Assembly: GCF_000218875.1 (NCBI RefSeq) | Contig: NC_015709.1 | Coordinates: 682,001-746,000 of the forward strand | Direction: 5' to 3' | DNA from: Zymomonas mobilis subsp. pomaceae ATCC 29192 | GTDB lineage: Bacteria > Pseudomonadota > Alphaproteobacteria > Sphingomonadales > Sphingomonadaceae | Length of the DNA: 64,000 nt | Shown: positions 9,961-16,857 of the stretch, piece by piece | How the letters are laid out: each line of letters opens with the position of its first letter | Position numbering within the stretch: position 1 is the first letter of the stretch | Program-made: the position numbers and the translations under genes | Notes under the pieces: generated by a model | Databases searched by the model: none | Told to the model about the DNA's origin: nothing | What the model saw: the letters and a program-made list of their open reading frames with translations, nothing else

Positions 9961-10508
9961 CTATTCCAAGATATTGGGAAATAGAACAAAACCGCTGCGA
10001 TGTTTAATTAAAAATAATGATAAAAAAGGGAATGAAACCCTCTGAAGATATTCAGCATATTTCTACTGTAATCTTGGGTTATTTTTTATTTTATCTTTAT
10101 TTATCAATATCTTATAATCATACTTTATATTTTGCGCCGCTATCTAAACCAAACTTGGACAGGGCTTTTAACTATCCCGATAGACGTTTTTAAAGAGAGA
10201 GGCTTCTTTTACAGGATTTTGAAATCCCCATGGGTTTTATTGCACCCTGAATTATCAGGCGTCAAAATTCCGTCAGTTTTCTGATAAGGCTATACTGTAT
10301 CCGATTTAAGGGAACAAAATTAAATCTTAAAAAAATAAAATCATTATTTTTCAAAAACTTATGATGATTTTTGAAATAAATAATAAATTTTTTTCGGTGA
10401 GGAATTTAAAAAAAAATCGGGATGGTCGTTACTGAATTTATGGCGGTCACGGACATTTTAGTCCTGCTGCCCCTCTCTAACCGCACTACCTTGAGAAGGA
10501 ATTTTTTT
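9961..10508. other. AT-rich divergent control region between activator gene and flagellin
   Basis: This gap of about 550 bases has no gene. It holds short inverted repeats: GGATTT/AAATCC at 10214-10227 with a two-base loop, and TTATCAG/CTGATAA at 10252-10258 and 10281-10287. The last 190 bases are long A/T runs and form the flagellin leader. I found no site with the exact -24/-12 spacing on the plus strand, so the flagellin gene is more likely FliA-dependent, but I cannot place a sigma-28 promoter with confidence. Confidence 0.5.
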
Positions 10509-11345
10509 GTGACCGTTATTAACACCAATACCAGCGCCCTCCGTGCTCAGAATGCTTCCCGTTTGGCCGACAACAGCTTGAACACGGCGATGACCCGTCT
10601 GTCCAGCGGTAAAAGCATCAACAGCGCTTCCGATAACGCTGCCGGTCTTGCTATTTCCAGTTCAATGACCGCTCAGATTAACGGTATGAACCAAGCCATC
10701 AGCAATTCCAACGATGGTATTTCTTTGGCTCAGACGGCTGATGGTGCTTTGGGTGAAGTCACCAATATGGTGCAGCGTATTAACCAGTTGGCTGTTCAGT
10801 CCGCCAACGGCACCTATCAGCAGAGCGACCGCACCGACATGAACACTGAAGTGAAACAGCTTCAGGCTCAGATCACGCAGGTTGTTAAAGGCACCAACTT
10901 TAATGGCGCTACGCTTTTCAGCACAGATTCGGCTGGAAAGTCCTTCAAAATTCAGACTGGTGCAACGAACAGCACCACAACCGATCAGGTCACCATTTCT
11001 ATTAGCGGCCTTGCGAAATTAGCTACCGTTATGAGCAATACCACCCTATCGGTTGGCACCTCTACTGCTGCATTGTCTGCCTTATCAACCATCACTTCGG
11101 CCCTGACCGCTATCAACACCACGCGTGCAGGTCTTGGTGCTTCTGAAAGCCGCTTGAGCTCAGTTGTCAACAATCTGACGACCAACGTTACCAACCTTTC
11201 TGATGCACGTAGCCGTATCCAGGATACTGACTATTCCTCAGAAACGACCAATCTGGCGCGTGCACAGATCCTCAGCCAGGCTTCAACCGCCATGCTGGCT
11301 CAGGCTAACCAGTCCCAGCAGAATGTTCTTTCCTTGTTAAAGTAA
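10509..11345 (+). CDS. fliC: Flagellin
   Basis: Flagellin polymerises into the filament. From the GTG at 10509 the product is 278 residues, preceded by an AGAAGGA ribosome-binding site eight bases upstream; it begins [20 protein letters not shown], the classic flagellin N-terminus. The frame is open further upstream from an ATG at 10422, but those 29 extra residues are unlike flagellin and would lie in front of the good ribosome-binding site. The conserved C-terminal coiled coil ([20 protein letters not shown]) is intact. The central variable region is short and rich in Ser, Thr and Ala, a possible glycan-acceptor surface. A strong terminator follows. It is the only flagellin gene in the window. 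Confidence 0.97.
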
Positions 11346-11380
11346 GCTTTACTTAAACAGCTTGAAAAAGAACACAAAAG

Positions 11381-11412
11381 AAGCCGCCCGATATTCATCG
11401 GGCGGCTTTCTT
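11381..11412 (+). terminator. Rho-independent terminator after flagellin
   Basis: A perfect 12-bp stem, AAGCCGCCCGAT and ATCGGGCGGCTT, with a four-base loop ATTC is followed by a T-rich stretch. It lies 35 bases after the fliC stop and separates fliC from the convergent glycosyltransferase-like gene. Confidence 0.93.
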
Positions 11413-11434: not shown

Positions 11435-12061
11435 TTAATTATCACCAACTGTATAAGGTATCTGGCCGATATGTTTTACCTTTTGGGTAACATCCATATC
11501 AAACCATAATTGATAACCGGCATTTATTGCTCTGACACTAAAGACGTAATCTTCACCAAAAAGGGATTTTTTCTCTTTTCCTTCAAAATCCCGTAAAGCG
11601 AATAAGAAATAAGGGCGAGGAAGATGATCGAAAACCGACATTTTAATCAGTAAACAACCTGTCGCGATTAGCATTGCTGGCAATAATCCATGATCAACTA
11701 AATTTTCGGGTTTTTCTGTATTCTCAACGCCTGCGAACCCAACATCTTCACTCCTTTTGCGATAATTGGCCCCGACTATATCTTTGTTATGAGATAAAAA
11801 CCTTGTGAGGGTATCAGATGGCACATCCATATCACTGTCGATAAAGAACAGATAATCGGCGTTGGCTTCCTGTGCCATTGCGACACAAGCATTCCGCGAC
11901 ACTGAAATATTAGGCGATTTATTGTTAATCAGGATAAATTCAACATCAGGCGTTTGTTGCATCATAATAGCAGTCGAAATCATAAAATCGACATGCACCA
12001 TAGGGCCTGATGGAAAACAGATAGCGATCTTGACCGGCGACTTGGTCGGTTTTGCTGTCAT
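11435..12061 (-). CDS. Glycosyltransferase-like protein with intact DxD motif
   Basis: This 208-residue soluble protein resembles GT-A fold, family 2/Anp1-like glycosyltransferases. It has an N-terminal strand region (VKIAICFPSG), a metal-binding DxD-type motif in FIDSDMDVP at about residues 93-101, GEDYVFSVRAINAGY further on and VKHIGQ near the C-terminus, where the His is a likely third metal ligand. It lies directly beside flagellin and 59 bases downstream of a clear paralogue, so a role in modifying flagellin is plausible but inferred. Donor sugar and acceptor cannot be told from the sequence. It is probably co-transcribed with the paralogue and converges on fliC across the terminator. 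Confidence 0.7.
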   Translation of the reverse strand: MTAKPTKSPVKIAICFPSGPMVHVDFMISTAIMMQQTPDVEFILINNKSPNISVSRNACVAMAQEANADYLFFIDSDMDVPSDTLTRFLSHNKDIVGANYRKRSEDVGFAGVENTEKPENLVDHGLLPAMLIATGCLLIKMSVFDHLPRPYFLFALRDFEGKEKKSLFGEDYVFSVRAINAGYQLWFDMDVTQKVKHIGQIPYTVGDN

Positions 12062-12120
12062 GTGGACATCCTTGCAGCAAAGCGGGAAGAGAAAAAGAAC
12101 TGACCTAATGGCCTGAATAA

Positions 12121-12807
12121 TCAGGCCGAAGGCGGTAATAATTTCTCTTTTTCAGTTTTTAGTAATTCCTGTTCCATCAATAAACGGCGTTCTTCAATAT
12201 CCGGCATATGGTAAACCCGCTGGCCAATACGGCCCATTTCGGCAGATAAATTACCATCGCACCAAATATCATAACCCAATTCACGAACACGATCGCAGAA
12301 GACAAACTCATCGCTCATGACATCATCCTGAAAGACGTCATAATAAAAATGAGGTAAATTGGGATCCAGCTTTTTAAAAACATCCGTTTTTACCAACAAG
12401 CAACCACCCGGCATATAATGCATTTTCAGCAAGCCTTTTTCGACTTCTTCAGGGATTTGCTGATCCGAGGTAATCCCTAACAAATTATAAGGCGCAATCG
12501 GTTTGGGATAAGTGACACCGATAATATCTTTTTTATGGGCCAACAGACGATGTAAGGTATCATTGGGAAAGGTGATGTCCCCGAACAGAAACAGGATATA
12601 ATCGGCATCCCATTGCAGGCTGTCTTTGACCGCTATATTTTTAGCGTTTGCCAGAACGGAAGAACGACCACAAATAATATTAATATTCATATCACGAGCC
12701 TGCTGAATCAAGCCCATGGCACTGATTGAGAACTCAACCAAAATCATGTCACCCGGTGCGATAATCGCAATCGCGACTTTTGGCTGTTTGCTTTCACCCT
12801 GTTCCAT
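12121..12807 (-). CDS. Glycosyltransferase-like paralogue lacking the DxD motif
   Basis: This 228-residue protein aligns along its length with the next gene downstream: YILFLFGDITFPNDTL matches YLFFIDSDMDVPSDTL, and GYDIWCDGNLSAEMGRIGQ matches GYQLWFDMDVTQKVKHIGQ. In these alignments both the DxD aspartates (now FGD) and the C-terminal His (now Arg) are changed, so metal-dependent catalysis looks unlikely. It has an additional charged C-terminal tail of about 20 residues (LLMEQELLKTEKEKLL). It might act as a non-catalytic partner of the downstream paralogue, bind a ligand, or use a different chemistry. Function unknown; the family assignment is reasonably sure. Confidence 0.65.
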   Translation of the reverse strand: MEQGESKQPKVAIAIIAPGDMILVEFSISAMGLIQQARDMNINIICGRSSVLANAKNIAVKDSLQWDADYILFLFGDITFPNDTLHRLLAHKKDIIGVTYPKPIAPYNLLGITSDQQIPEEVEKGLLKMHYMPGGCLLVKTDVFKKLDPNLPHFYYDVFQDDVMSDEFVFCDRVRELGYDIWCDGNLSAEMGRIGQRVYHMPDIEERRLLMEQELLKTEKEKLLPPSA

Positions 12808-12887
12808 ATAAAACTCCCCTAAAAGGCCGAAATTAGCCTTAAAATTGATTATAGCGCTCGATGGTTATTAGAATGTTGACATTCACC

Positions 12888-12959
12888 CTACCCTAAAGGG
12901 TAGAAATACCTTCTACAACACGGCCATACCCGACCACGAAAAAGGATATGGTCGATCAT
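12888..12959 (-). other. Possible 23-codon leader ORF ending in a hairpin
   Basis: An ATG preceded by TAGGGAA seven bases upstream opens a 23-residue frame that contains a CCRRYFYP run and ends in a TAG. The stop lies in the stem of a hairpin, CTACCC/GGGTAG, at 12888-12903. The arrangement resembles a regulatory leader peptide, but the ORF is so short that chance is a real possibility. Confidence 0.2.
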
Positions 12960-13043
12960 AAAATGTTCCCTACAGCAGTATCATGCCGTCATTTAGCCTT
13001 TCCCCAATACGGCCTGTGCCTTCTCTTATTCCGATCCGAGGTC

Positions 13044-13109
13044 GCCTATAGCTTTTGAATCACTGTTGTGCTTTTCCTCCCAGCACAAACAACGATGAAA
13101 ACTATAGGC
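13044..13109 (-). repeat. Nested inverted repeats exposing a GGGAGG loop
   Basis: Outer arms GCCTATAG (13044-13051) and CTATAGGC (13102-13109) enclose inner arms TTGTGC (13066-13071) and GCACAA (13083-13088). On the minus strand the inner loop reads TGGGAGGAAAA, which resembles a Shine-Dalgarno sequence held in a loop. No T-tract follows, so it is not an obvious terminator. It could be part of an RNA leader or a small RNA. Confidence 0.4.
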
Positions 13110-13176
13110 CTTGATAACACGCCCCGATAACGGCCTTTCGACATCTTAATCTTATCAGCTATCGGTTTTTATCGGT

Positions 13177-13920
13177 TTAATGCTGCCAGTCTGTCATTTT
13201 TTGACGGAGGTGATCGACCGCCGCCTTTTTAATCTGACTAATTCGGGCTGTCCCCAAGTCTAAGACTTCCCCAATTTCTTTCAGATTCAGTTCTTCGACA
13301 TAATACAGCTGTAACACCATAGCTTCTCGTTCAGGCAGGTTTTGAATATGTTCAGCCAAAGCCTTTTGCAGTCCTTGCCGCTCTAAATCACCTACGGGAT
13401 CGGCAGTCTCATCGGAAAAAATACTGGAATGATCGGAATAAACATCATCCAAGGATTCTTGGCGAATACTGATCGCACTGTCGGCCCATTCCCGATATTC
13501 GCTGGCCGTCATACCTAATTTTTCGGCCATTTCAGAATCTTCGGGCGGACGCCCCAAGGCCGCTTCCAATTCTTCCCGCGTTTTATTCAATGTCTTGCGT
13601 CGCGCAATGCTAGATCGACCGGTTGCCGCATGTTGCCGCATATAGTCGATCATCGCCCCTCTTATGCGCATTGAAGCATAGGTAGCGAAGGCAAATCCCC
13701 GATTTTCAAAAGCATTAGCCGCTTCAATCAGGGCAACCATACCGATTTGAATCAAATCTTCTATTTCAATGGCATTGGAAACACGACCATGAACATGCCA
13801 TGCTATTTTGCGCACTAATTGCAAATGGCCTTTAATTAAGGCCTCAATATTCTTCTTTGACGGATTACGGCTGTAAACAACGGGAATCGCTTCGGAATCT
13901 TCAAATTCATTAAGATGCAC
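13177..13920 (-). CDS. fliA: Flagellar sigma factor FliA (sigma-28)
   Basis: FliA directs RNA polymerase to late flagellar promoters and is held inactive by FlgM until the hook is complete. The 247-residue protein has region 2 (EDLIQIGMVALIEAANAFE, then FATYASMRIRGAMIDYMRQH), a region 3 around RPPEDSEMAEKLGMTASEY, and region 4 with LNLKEIGEVLDLGTARISQI. Length matches FliA and there is no region 1.1. Its start overlaps the end of flhG by 11 bases, so it belongs to the flhA-flhG-fliA transcript and is probably translationally coupled. Confidence 0.96.
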   Translation of the reverse strand: MHLNEFEDSEAIPVVYSRNPSKKNIEALIKGHLQLVRKIAWHVHGRVSNAIEIEDLIQIGMVALIEAANAFENRGFAFATYASMRIRGAMIDYMRQHAATGRSSIARRKTLNKTREELEAALGRPPEDSEMAEKLGMTASEYREWADSAISIRQESLDDVYSDHSSIFSDETADPVGDLERQGLQKALAEHIQNLPEREAMVLQLYYVEELNLKEIGEVLDLGTARISQIKKAAVDHLRQKMTDWQH

Positions 13921-14728
13921 TCACCGTCTCCAAACCGAAAAAGAAGCTATTTCGCCGTCCTTTTGGTAAAGAGTGGTCATCCAGTGCATGAGCCAGACGA
14001 TCAAAGGCTTCAGCCGCTCTTGATTTCGGAAATAATTCTAAACAACAACGCTTCCGCAATACCGCTTCCCGTAAATGAGGATCGCGGGGAATAGAGCCAA
14101 GATGATAAAGCTTTGTGCCTAAAAAACGTGCTGATACGTCCGAAAAGCGTCGAAAAAGATCACGACCTTCGGTTTCATCTTCTACCATATTCGTAACTAC
14201 TGAAACTTCTTTCACTTTATATTCAAGCGCCAATAGCTTGATTAAAGCATAACCGTCCATAAAAGATGTGGGTTCTGAAGAAATTACCAGAATAACGCGA
14301 TCGGCTGATGCCGTTAAAGCCAGTGAACTGGGAGAAGCCCCACTGGGGCCATCTAACAGAATATAGTCAAAAGATTTGGTCCAAGGCCGCAAGCTATCGA
14401 CTAATCGACGTTTGGCGACCGCATCCATTTCCATGATCCGCCCTGCCCCGTTCACACCGGGAACAAGCATCAAACCAAACGGGCCTTGTTGGACAACATC
14501 TTCATATTCATGCCGACCCGTCAGAATATCTTCTATCGTTTTATCGGCATTCATGCCAAGAACTATGCCGACGTCCGCCATCCCAAGATCGCAATCGAGC
14601 AATAGCGTCCGTCTTTTCATTTTTGCTAATGCTGCGGTCAGATTAGCAATAACGTTCGTTTTTCCAACCCCACCTTTACCACTGGCAACAGCAATAACCT
14701 GAGGTGTACGTAACAGTTTGGGCATCAT
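13910..14728 (-). CDS. flhG: Flagellar number regulator FlhG (FleN/YlxH), MinD-like ATPase
   Basis: FlhG is a membrane-associated ParA/MinD-type ATPase that limits flagellar number, in several bacteria by acting on FlhF and on the sigma-54 activator FleQ. The 272-residue protein has the deviant Walker A KGGVGKT at residues 18-24 and the switch motif DCDLGMADVG, followed by ILLDGPSGASP. Its start overlaps the flhA stop by one base. The usual partner flhF is not between flhA and flhG, nor elsewhere in the window. A contact with the sigma-54 activator encoded nearby is an inference from other species. Confidence 0.9.
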   Translation of the reverse strand: MMPKLLRTPQVIAVASGKGGVGKTNVIANLTAALAKMKRRTLLLDCDLGMADVGIVLGMNADKTIEDILTGRHEYEDVVQQGPFGLMLVPGVNGAGRIMEMDAVAKRRLVDSLRPWTKSFDYILLDGPSGASPSSLALTASADRVILVISSEPTSFMDGYALIKLLALEYKVKEVSVVTNMVEDETEGRDLFRRFSDVSARFLGTKLYHLGSIPRDPHLREAVLRKRCCLELFPKSRAAEAFDRLAHALDDHSLPKGRRNSFFFGLETVSAS

Positions 14729-16857
14729 TACGACACTACCTCCGCCTTGTTATTGGCTATCGAAGGAGAAGACGATTGTCCATCCCCCACGACAGCAACA
14801 ACTTCTACCGGCTTTCCATCTGGAATTTCAAGGAAAGATAAGACCGGAATATCTGAAAAATGGGGTTTTAACAGCCTTGCTAACGGACGACGAATAACGG
14901 GCGAAGTCACAATAGCAAAGCGTTGTCCTGAAGAAAGCAAAGGATGGGCTGCGGATTCCAATGCCGTCACGATGCGATTAGCCAAGGCCGGTTCAAATGG
15001 ATGCGTCGCCTGTGGGCCAGAACGAACCCCCTGAGAAAGAAGGGATTCAAGCTTAGGCTCAAAGGTAACAACCGAAAGGGGCATTTTCACAGGAACGATA
15101 GATTGAACAATAATGCCACCAATCCTTATTCTGATAGCTTCCAGTAAAGCATTAGGTTCGGTTTCTTCTCTTGCGGCATCCGCCATAGCTTCTGCAATAC
15201 GGCGGAATTCATGAAGAGAAACACCTTCGGATAAAAGAGAGCGACACATTAATGTAATAAGCGCCAAAGATAACGGCTGTGGCGTTAATCCGCCTACTAA
15301 TTGTGGTGCAGACTCTTTCAGCATATCCAACAATTTTTGTGCATCATCCATGCCGAATAAATCAGCGGCATTACTCAGGATGGCTTGATTAAGATGGGTA
15401 GCAATAACCGTTGCCGCATCCACGACCGTATAACCCGCAACAATAGCATCCGAGCGGCGATTTTCAGGAATCCATACCGCATCTAATCCAAAGCTGGGAT
15501 CTTTTACTACGCGACCCTCCAATGTGCCATCAGCATCACCATTATTCAGAGCCAATAACTGGTCAGGCCAGATTTCATCTTCACCTATCACAACACCCGC
15601 AACACTAACGCGATAACTATTCGGACCCAAGGATAAATTATCCCGCACCCGAACCAAGGGAATGACAAAACCCAAATCGCGGGAAAGTTGACGTCGAATA
15701 CCCGTTATACGTGCCATTAACGGGGCCTTTTTTCGTTCATCCACTAAAGAGATAAGCGCATATCCGATTTCTAATGTCAAAACCGAACCATCAGAAACGT
15801 CATCCCATGATACAGGCGGCGGCGTATCGGGTACAAGGGTCGGTGGCGGCGCTTCTTTCAAAGCGGCTTCGGCTTGGGCTGATTTATGCAATTTCCATGC
15901 GGTCCATCCGGCTAATCCCGCAGCCGGTAAAATAACAAAATGGGGCATACCGGGCAAAATGCCAAGGAAACCCAAAATAACGGCAACCGGCGTCCAAGCG
16001 CGTGGGGAATTAAACTGACTGACAATTTGTCCGGTCAAATCAAAAGAGGAAGAGACCCGCGTAACAATGGAAGCCGTCGCAAAAGATAAAAGGAAAGATG
16101 GGATTTGAGCAACAAGGGCATCACCGATGGCCAGTTGCACATAATTAGAAGCGGCTTCACTGAAAGAAAGATTATAGCTGAAAACACCAAGGATCAAACC
16201 ACCAACGATGTTGATCACCAGAATAAGGACACCAGCGACCGCATCCCCCTTAACAAATTTGGAAGCACCATCCATAGAACCATAAAAACCGGCCTCTGTG
16301 GAAACTTCTTGTCTTCTGGTCTTAGCTTCTTCTGGCGTAATGAGACCGGCATTAAGGTCAGCATCAATAGCCATTTGCTTACCGGGCATAGCATCCAAGG
16401 TAAAACGCGCTGACACTTCTGACACGCGTCCGGCACCTTTCGTCACCACAACCAAATTGATAATCATCAAAATGGAAAAGATGAACACGCCGACCATGTA
16501 ATGATCGCCGATAAGAAAGTGACCAAAAGATTCAATCACCATACCCGCGGCATCAGCCCCTGTATGACCATTGACCAACACAACACGGGTCGAGGCCACA
16601 TTAAGCGACAAACGAAGTAAGGTTGCAAAAAGAAGAACGGTCGGAAAAGAGGAAAAGTCCAAGGGTTTTGCTGCATTAAGCGAAACCATTAACACAGCGA
16701 GAGAAATCGTAATGTTGGAAATAAAGCCAATATCAAGGACGGTTGTTGGCACTGGGACGACCATCAACCCGACCAATACCAAAATAGCGATTGGCAAAAT
16801 AGCAGTTCGACCAGCGGCAAGCCAAATCGTCTTTTTGACTGCGGCTGTTGCCATCAA
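14728..16857 (-). CDS. flhA: Flagellar export gate protein FlhA
   Basis: FlhA is the large inner-membrane component of the type III export gate; its cytosolic nonameric ring docks chaperone-substrate complexes. The 709-residue protein has an N-terminal half with about eight membrane spans and the cytosolic FHIPEP signature region (AGRVSEVSARFTLDAMPGKQ, then MAIDADLNAG). The C-terminal half is the soluble docking domain. Length is normal. It heads the flhA-flhG-fliA transcript, and a very good sigma-54 promoter lies about 100 bases upstream. Confidence 0.97.
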   Translation of the reverse strand: MMATAAVKKTIWLAAGRTAILPIAILVLVGLMVVPVPTTVLDIGFISNITISLAVLMVSLNAAKPLDFSSFPTVLLFATLLRLSLNVASTRVVLVNGHTGADAAGMVIESFGHFLIGDHYMVGVFIFSILMIINLVVVTKGAGRVSEVSARFTLDAMPGKQMAIDADLNAGLITPEEAKTRRQEVSTEAGFYGSMDGASKFVKGDAVAGVLILVINIVGGLILGVFSYNLSFSEAASNYVQLAIGDALVAQIPSFLLSFATASIVTRVSSSFDLTGQIVSQFNSPRAWTPVAVILGFLGILPGMPHFVILPAAGLAGWTAWKLHKSAQAEAALKEAPPPTLVPDTPPPVSWDDVSDGSVLTLEIGYALISLVDERKKAPLMARITGIRRQLSRDLGFVIPLVRVRDNLSLGPNSYRVSVAGVVIGEDEIWPDQLLALNNGDADGTLEGRVVKDPSFGLDAVWIPENRRSDAIVAGYTVVDAATVIATHLNQAILSNAADLFGMDDAQKLLDMLKESAPQLVGGLTPQPLSLALITLMCRSLLSEGVSLHEFRRIAEAMADAAREETEPNALLEAIRIRIGGIIVQSIVPVKMPLSVVTFEPKLESLLSQGVRSGPQATHPFEPALANRIVTALESAAHPLLSSGQRFAIVTSPVIRRPLARLLKPHFSDIPVLSFLEIPDGKPVEVVAVVGDGQSSSPSIANNKAEVVS

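Follow-up and report, generated by a model that had tools for sequence, protein, structure and literature searches.

Flagellin glycosyltransferases and pseudo-enzyme partners are each already known. GtfA and GtfB of the accessory Sec systems have a GT-B fold. They are described in PMC6973325 as an enzyme and a chaperone-like partner that binds the acceptor. In the paralogous GT-A pair Mnn9/Van1 (M-Pol I, family GT62), the polymerase activity of Van1 is reported to need the Mnn9 protein but not Mnn9 catalysis, and Mnn9 also primes (PMC3787745); section 3.1 of that paper gives the metal ligands of Mnn9 as a His, a carboxylate of the DxD motif, and pyrophosphate. The protein-modifying enzyme LH3 (PLOD3) carries two GT-A-like domains, one catalytic and one thought inactive, and the authors of PMC6082870 think that the latter, the accessory domain, has lost its activity and may help in substrate recognition. 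Within the alphaproteobacteria, FlmG of Caulobacter is a cytoplasmic flagellin glycosyltransferase (PMC7591256). A search of the open-access literature found no description of a two-part flagellar system composed of a GT-A enzyme and a GT-A pseudo-enzyme.

The window analyzed here is a stretch of 64,000 nucleotides from Zymomonas mobilis subsp. pomaceae ATCC 29192 (contig NC_015709.1, positions 682,001 to 746,000). Two minus-strand open reading frames, designated Zup (upstream) and Zdn (downstream), together occupy positions 11435-12807 and are separated by 59 bp (Table 1). A preliminary description of this DNA had called them tandem paralogues beside fliC, and this was borne out: the two products align by BLASTP with an E value of 2e-32 and identity at 66 of 210 positions (31%), and the convergent neighbor is a flagellin by Pfam (Flagellin_N, 7.3e-38; Flagellin_C, 3e-24). 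One central stretch of this flagellin holds 24 Ser/Thr among its 55 residues versus 23-26% elsewhere. As listed, the fliC frame opens about 30 codons ahead of the conserved flagellin start, and the true start probably lies inside it. ZMO0629 is treated as the Z. mobilis flagellin in PMC9797736 and PMC12502597.

Table 1. Positions, in window coordinates, of the genes, sites, and diagnostic codons discussed in the text
Feature	Position	Strand	Remark
Zup, upstream paralogue, 228 aa	12121..12807	-	ORF; predicted GT-A model; candidate pseudo-enzyme
Zdn, downstream paralogue, 208 aa	11435..12061	-	ORF; predicted GT-A glycosyltransferase, motifs intact
fliC flagellin ORF	10422..11345	+	Convergent with Zdn; proposed acceptor
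Terminator-like hairpin	11380..11409	.	Readable on both strands; between fliC and Zdn
fliA sigma factor gene	13177..13920	-	Upstream of Zup/Zdn; NCBIfam FliA_WhiG, 244 bits (cut-off 189.6)
flhA	14728..16857	-	Upstream of pair; above NCBIfam cut-off
Zup codons 75-77, F-G-D versus family D-x-D	12577..12585	-	First Asp gone, second retained
Zup codon 193, Arg versus His in 81/81 canonical sequences	12229..12231	-	Alignment
Zdn codons 75-77, D-S-D intact	11831..11839	-	Alignment
Zdn codon 197, His intact	11471..11473	-	Alignment

The order fliA-Zup-Zdn, with fliC convergent, was found in all four Zymomonas genomes. In the window, a gene for a MinD-like ATPase sits between fliA and flhA. Terminator-like sites in the region numbered 6 versus 3.4 expected, and the hairpin between fliC and Zdn has the longest stem among them. 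Matches to sigma-28-like (31 versus 24.7 expected), sigma-54-like (5 versus 4.8), and sigma-70-like (7 versus 7.4) promoters were at chance level. The spacer between fliA and Zup (12808-13176) measures 369 bp, compared to 116-148 bp in the three other Zymomonas genomes; it is single copy in its genome, and no Rfam family reached its gathering score there.

Both proteins belong to phrog_1574, a family without functional annotation, whose profile matched Zdn (E 1.2e-20), Zup (E 3.8e-17), and all seven other relatives tested. Zdn also matched Pfam Glyco_transf_21 (PF13506) at 24.2 bits against a cut-off of 21.7, a match that spans only 56 of the 174 profile positions, while no match to this profile was obtained for Zup at an E value of 1. 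NCBIfam searches of the two proteins returned only matches below cut-off, and a sequence search of solved structures with Zdn gave nothing significant (best E 0.28). Membership in GT62 was considered and set aside, as the Anp1 profile (PF03452) scored 22.6 and 21.6 bits for the two proteins, under the Pfam cut-off of 28.8. In a family tree of 61 of 85 rows, with viral rows thinned, Zup and Zdn fell in one clade with the cellular relatives G653, G412, and G334 and three viral rows at a modest support of 86/87; the tree does not resolve Zup and Zdn as sisters, and long branches were flagged in that clade.

To compare active-site residues, a canonical set of 81 sequences was aligned with the four Zup. 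The set comprised four Zdn, 10 other cellular, 63 distinct viral, and three phage sequences, together with one tandem partner. Viral relatives came from three scans, the first two of which returned 0 and 1; the third gave 156, and the best 80 of these by resemblance to Zdn were kept. The search patterns did not include the diagnostic residues themselves. With the viral part limited to these best 80 of 156, R56, D75, D77, D171, and H197 were identical in 81/81 canonical sequences and in all 77 relatives from outside Zymomonas. All four Zdn retain the five residues, which agrees with the earlier statement that the downstream paralogue keeps its DxD aspartates and a His; the motifs quoted for both paralogues are present as well. 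In Zup, the position of R56 is K in all four copies, D75 (the first Asp of DxD) has given way to F in two species and to S in the other two, and H197 is replaced by R throughout. D171 is conserved as D in three copies and is E in the window copy. Given the contrast between 81/81 canonical sequences and 4/4 Zup at H197 and D75, these differences are not due to chance. The earlier claim that both metal sites are lost in Zup thus stands for the first Asp and the His and fails for D77, the second Asp, which is retained in 4/4. This second Asp we take to be the usual direct metal ligand of a DxD motif; on that view, of the two metal ligands supplied by the protein, one would still be present in Zup. 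Further losses had escaped the preliminary description: R103, which is R or K in 81/81 canonical sequences, is P in Zup, K stands for R56, and the acidic pair ED of the family reads DE or DD. The third Asp of the quoted Zdn motif, D79, is variable in the family (mostly V, R, I, or T), and its absence from Zup therefore means nothing.

Among the 77 non-Zymomonas sequences, again with the best 80 of 156 as viral part, 12 columns were at least 95% conserved. Every Zup has lost three of them (R56, D75, and H197); no column is missing from all four Zdn together, and two Zdn carry F at L88. All six hydrophobic or glycine columns of this group are retained in the four Zup. At 90% conservation or above there were 23 columns, of which seven are lost in all four Zup versus one in all four Zdn, though P17, one of the seven, may reflect an alignment shift beside a one-residue deletion. 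The DxD motif together with the C-terminal His is complete in every Zdn and in no Zup, and Zup, without the first Asp and the His, is not classed as an active enzyme. Binding of a donor or metal by Zup is possible, given D77, D188, and the acidic residue at the D171 position.

To look for other degenerate members, the profile was run against all fetched loci, giving 210 matching frames, many of them coming from loci that overlap on a single gene. D75, D77, and H197 were all present in 185 of these, and the 19 frames without D75 and H197 were all Zup copies. The remaining six were four cut fragments and two weak matches with Gln at the His position (L031, E 8e-6; L032, E 3e-6), which are probably ordinary family 2 enzymes. 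Pairing of an intact with a degenerate member was seen in Zymomonas only; elsewhere the relative is single or stands in tandem with another intact member, and the expectation that the pair would be conserved together holds for the four Zymomonas genomes and not beyond them. Wherever tandem members are complete, in the bacterial family f122 as in several viral contigs, they are intact. The viral contigs L107, L137, L140, L142, L145, and L148 each carry two tandem members, all with D75, D77, and H197.

When Zup was the query, matches appeared in 4 of 59 genomes, the window's own among them, all of them Zymomonas with two copies each. Wherever the genome of the query was part of a sample, it is counted here and below. 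The order sample gave 3/296, again all Zymomonas; the broad family was found in 20/385 genomes of the class sample at E 1e-4, and the phylum sample gave 4/398 at 1e-12. Counts were 2/249 in the order of G653, 2/43 in that of G412, and 9/33 in that of G173, and nine plasmid records carry relatives at an identity of at most 42%. This patchy distribution fits horizontal spread.

Zup is under strong purifying selection. Its orthologues are open in four genomes and 82-83% identical to the window copy, compared to 75-78% for Zdn, and pairwise dN/dS over six species pairs was 0.039-0.089 for Zup, 0.114-0.185 for Zdn, and 0.046-0.077 for fliA, values that are rough because 11 of the 18 dS estimates exceed 1. 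The constraint on Zup is thus about that of fliA and stronger than that on Zdn. The picture of two GT-A paralogues, one intact and one degenerate, that stay together beside fliC is upheld in 4/4 Zymomonas genomes, with the degenerate member the more constrained.

AlphaFold2 models of Zup and Zdn had mean pLDDT values of 90.8 and 90.5, both from alignments that mix Zup with intact relatives, on which the Zup model leans. Residues 71-80, which include DxD, averaged 96 in both models, and residues 191-200 averaged 80 in Zup (Arg193) and 90 in Zdn (His197). The best fold matches included STIV A197 (Zdn, Z 18.6 over 157 residues at 2.1 A; Zup, 18.3 over 161 at 2.1 A), human LH3 residues 293 to about 520 (17.8 for Zdn, 18.6 for Zup), mimivirus R699 (16.4, 17.3), ColGalT1 (16.2, 15.9), and yeast Mnn9 (15.8, 16.7). 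Both proteins are therefore predicted to adopt a GT-A fold, and the suggestion that the upstream paralogue had kept its fold is supported by its model and by the retained hydrophobic and glycine columns. The match lists do not separate Zup from Zdn, and a common predicted fold would by itself show no function. The LH3 stretch contains the Val304-Phe310 loop, which the authors of PMC6082870 assign to the accessory domain; its high rank for both models supports the fold and not inactivity of Zup. The Zup model has an extra C-terminal helix, residues 202-222, in a conserved tail that is absent from Zdn.

To evaluate linkage to flagellin outside Zymomonas, 12 cellular loci of the clade of 200-residue proteins were examined, 11 of which could be judged, the G173 locus lying at a contig end. 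Within f122, the gene adjoins flagellin, FlbT, and FlaF in G491, G494, G495, G497, G499, G500, and G501, in all seven by tblastn; five of the flagellins were also recognized by Pfam, with Flagellin_N above and Flagellin_C just below cut-off. A kinase-like gene occupies the flagellin's place in G496, and linkage in this lineage was thus 7/8. In G653, from another family, the gene follows FlbT with two flagellins further on (1/1). The gene sits between a ruvX-like and a pyrB-like gene in G412 and G334, and no flagellin was found within the 16-19 kb examined (0/2). Overall, intact relatives stand by flagellin genes at 8 of the 11 judged loci; these represent two of the three additional lineages, one of which contributes seven of the eight. 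The presence of intact relatives beside flagellin in two other alphaproteobacterial lineages makes a flagellar role for the Zup/Zdn pair likely, in line with what had been proposed from the window, although gene linkage does not prove that flagellin is the acceptor.

The f122 loci also carry GT4 and TPR proteins, one TPR protein having a GT9 match just above cut-off, and a second family member is present in most of them and was not found in G491. Specifically, the flagellin loci L068 (4931-12504), L067, L069, L071, and L072 hold a GT4 protein, one or two phrog_1574-type glycosyltransferases, and TPR proteins along with flagellin, FlbT, and FlaF; the second phrog_1574-type gene was not found in L069. 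A small protein adjoins the intact relative in L040 (9838-10329) and L041 (8676-9128), and the L040 copy gave a weak match, below cut-off, to the rod-protein domain Flg_bbr_C.

The family is common in phages. In four of the six phage records viewed (L048, L049, L050, and L051; three phages from one spring and one Microcystis phage), the relative follows the major capsid gene either immediately or at a distance of one gene. Pfam confirmed the capsid gene in two of the four. In a Synechococcus phage, the relative stands among tail collar and baseplate genes; its neighbors in a Pelagibacter phage are hypothetical genes, and a glycosyltransferase gene and a putatively structural one are close by. 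In G097, the relative precedes a phage adaptor gene. Judged from gene position only, decoration of virions by the phage relatives is possible.

We propose that the pair forms a small dedicated flagellin-modification module, with Zdn as the glycosyltransferase and Zup as its non-catalytic partner, and we give this reading about an even chance. Zdn would be a soluble, metal-dependent GT-A enzyme that transfers a sugar from a nucleotide sugar to Ser/Thr of flagellin, in the cytoplasm and ahead of flagellin export. Zup, with a predicted GT-A fold and one Asp of DxD kept, lacks residues that would be expected to bind the metal and donor; it may have been retained as a non-catalytic partner, most likely binding flagellin and/or Zdn. 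We infer that such contact would set specificity or stability. The binding would resemble that of GtfB to the acceptor of GtfA, or the activation of Van1 by the Mnn9 protein, which does not depend on Mnn9 catalysis. Extended to the whole family, the proposal reads that several lineages of alphaproteobacteria use for their flagellin a glycosyltransferase family that is common in phages, and that the second copy in Zymomonas became a dedicated pseudo-enzyme subunit, giving a two-part GT-A system; this wider version we hold tentatively, as somewhat short of an even chance.

The donor was approached through the gene content of the genome. No match to NeuB-type synthase (PF03102) was found in it (0/1), while 9 of 14 control genomes were positive, Caulobacter included; a nonulosonic acid donor is therefore unlikely, and a common nucleotide sugar probably serves instead. 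Glycosylation of the nonulosonic acid type (FlmG, Maf) was rejected on this ground. PF01973, which is named MptE-like and presumably covers bacterial Maf, was absent as well (0/1), but positives among the controls came only from four archaea, so that this absence says little about bacterial Maf.

Metal-free GT-A enzymes in which basic residues replace the metal exist, as in the GT14 core-2 GlcNAc transferase, and Zup could be active in this manner, with Arg193 replacing the metal and stabilizing the leaving pyrophosphate and the pair adding two sugars sequentially. The Arg is invariant in 4/4 Zup, acidic residues at 77, 166, and 167 are retained, and tandem members elsewhere, both intact where complete, suggest that a pair normally serves to transfer sugars in sequence. 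However, Zup has also lost D75, R56, and R103, which vary little or not at all among the 81 canonical relatives, and the split of position 75 between F and S ill suits a rebuilt active site, so we consider an active Zup unlikely. Still less probable is that Zup serves as a flagellin chaperone or regulator independent of Zdn. A constraint above that of Zdn and the conserved C-terminal tail, modeled as a helix and absent from Zdn, would agree with such a separate task, but Zup adjoins Zdn in 4/4 genomes and is its paralogue. That Zup is simply a decaying duplicate, as the several missing residues that are invariant in relatives might suggest, is very improbable, since its dN/dS values are low (0.039-0.089) and its frame is open in four genomes at 82-83% identity to the window copy.

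The remaining alternative concerns the target. The pair might act on another flagellar protein, a surface glycan, or a small acceptor, its position in the cluster being due to chance or co-expression. The relatives in G412 and G334, which have no flagellin within 16-19 kb and stand beside the sub-threshold rod-protein match, and the many relatives that are phage genes point in this direction; flagellin linkage in three lineages argues against it, and we think a target other than flagellin improbable. Should the proposed module of Zdn and its non-catalytic partner Zup prove true, its two genes and 436 residues would offer a compact bacterial model of a dead glycosyltransferase steering a live one. 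Genome editing is in use for Zymomonas, an ethanol producer, according to PMC8543907. The linkage data also point to a function for an unannotated phage family, which they tie to flagella in three lineages.

Among the known systems nearest to the pair, phrog_1574 matches both proteins by profile, and its intact members share DxD, (G/S)ED or HD, and the His. No complete phage or viral relative examined was without D75, D77, or H197, which sets Zup apart from them, and in most records viewed the phage copies stand among virion genes, unlike Zup and Zdn. LH3 resembles the pair in that its region 293-517 is among the best fold matches of both models; it differs in being a single polypeptide with a lysyl hydroxylase domain and in having collagen as acceptor. 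Mnn9 and Van1 are likewise a paralogous GT-A pair, and the Anp1 profile matches Zup and Zdn below cut-off, but they act in the yeast Golgi and both members are enzymes. GtfA and GtfB offer the likeness of an enzyme with an acceptor-binding partner; their acceptor is a serine-rich adhesin and they involve DUF1975, whereas the models of Zup and Zdn match GT-A structures. FlmG shares with the proposed module its alphaproteobacterial setting and flagellin acceptor, yet it is a single modular protein that binds flagellin through an N-terminal domain and needs pseudaminic acid (PMC7591256), while Zup and Zdn carry no further Pfam domain and are encoded in a genome without a NeuB match.
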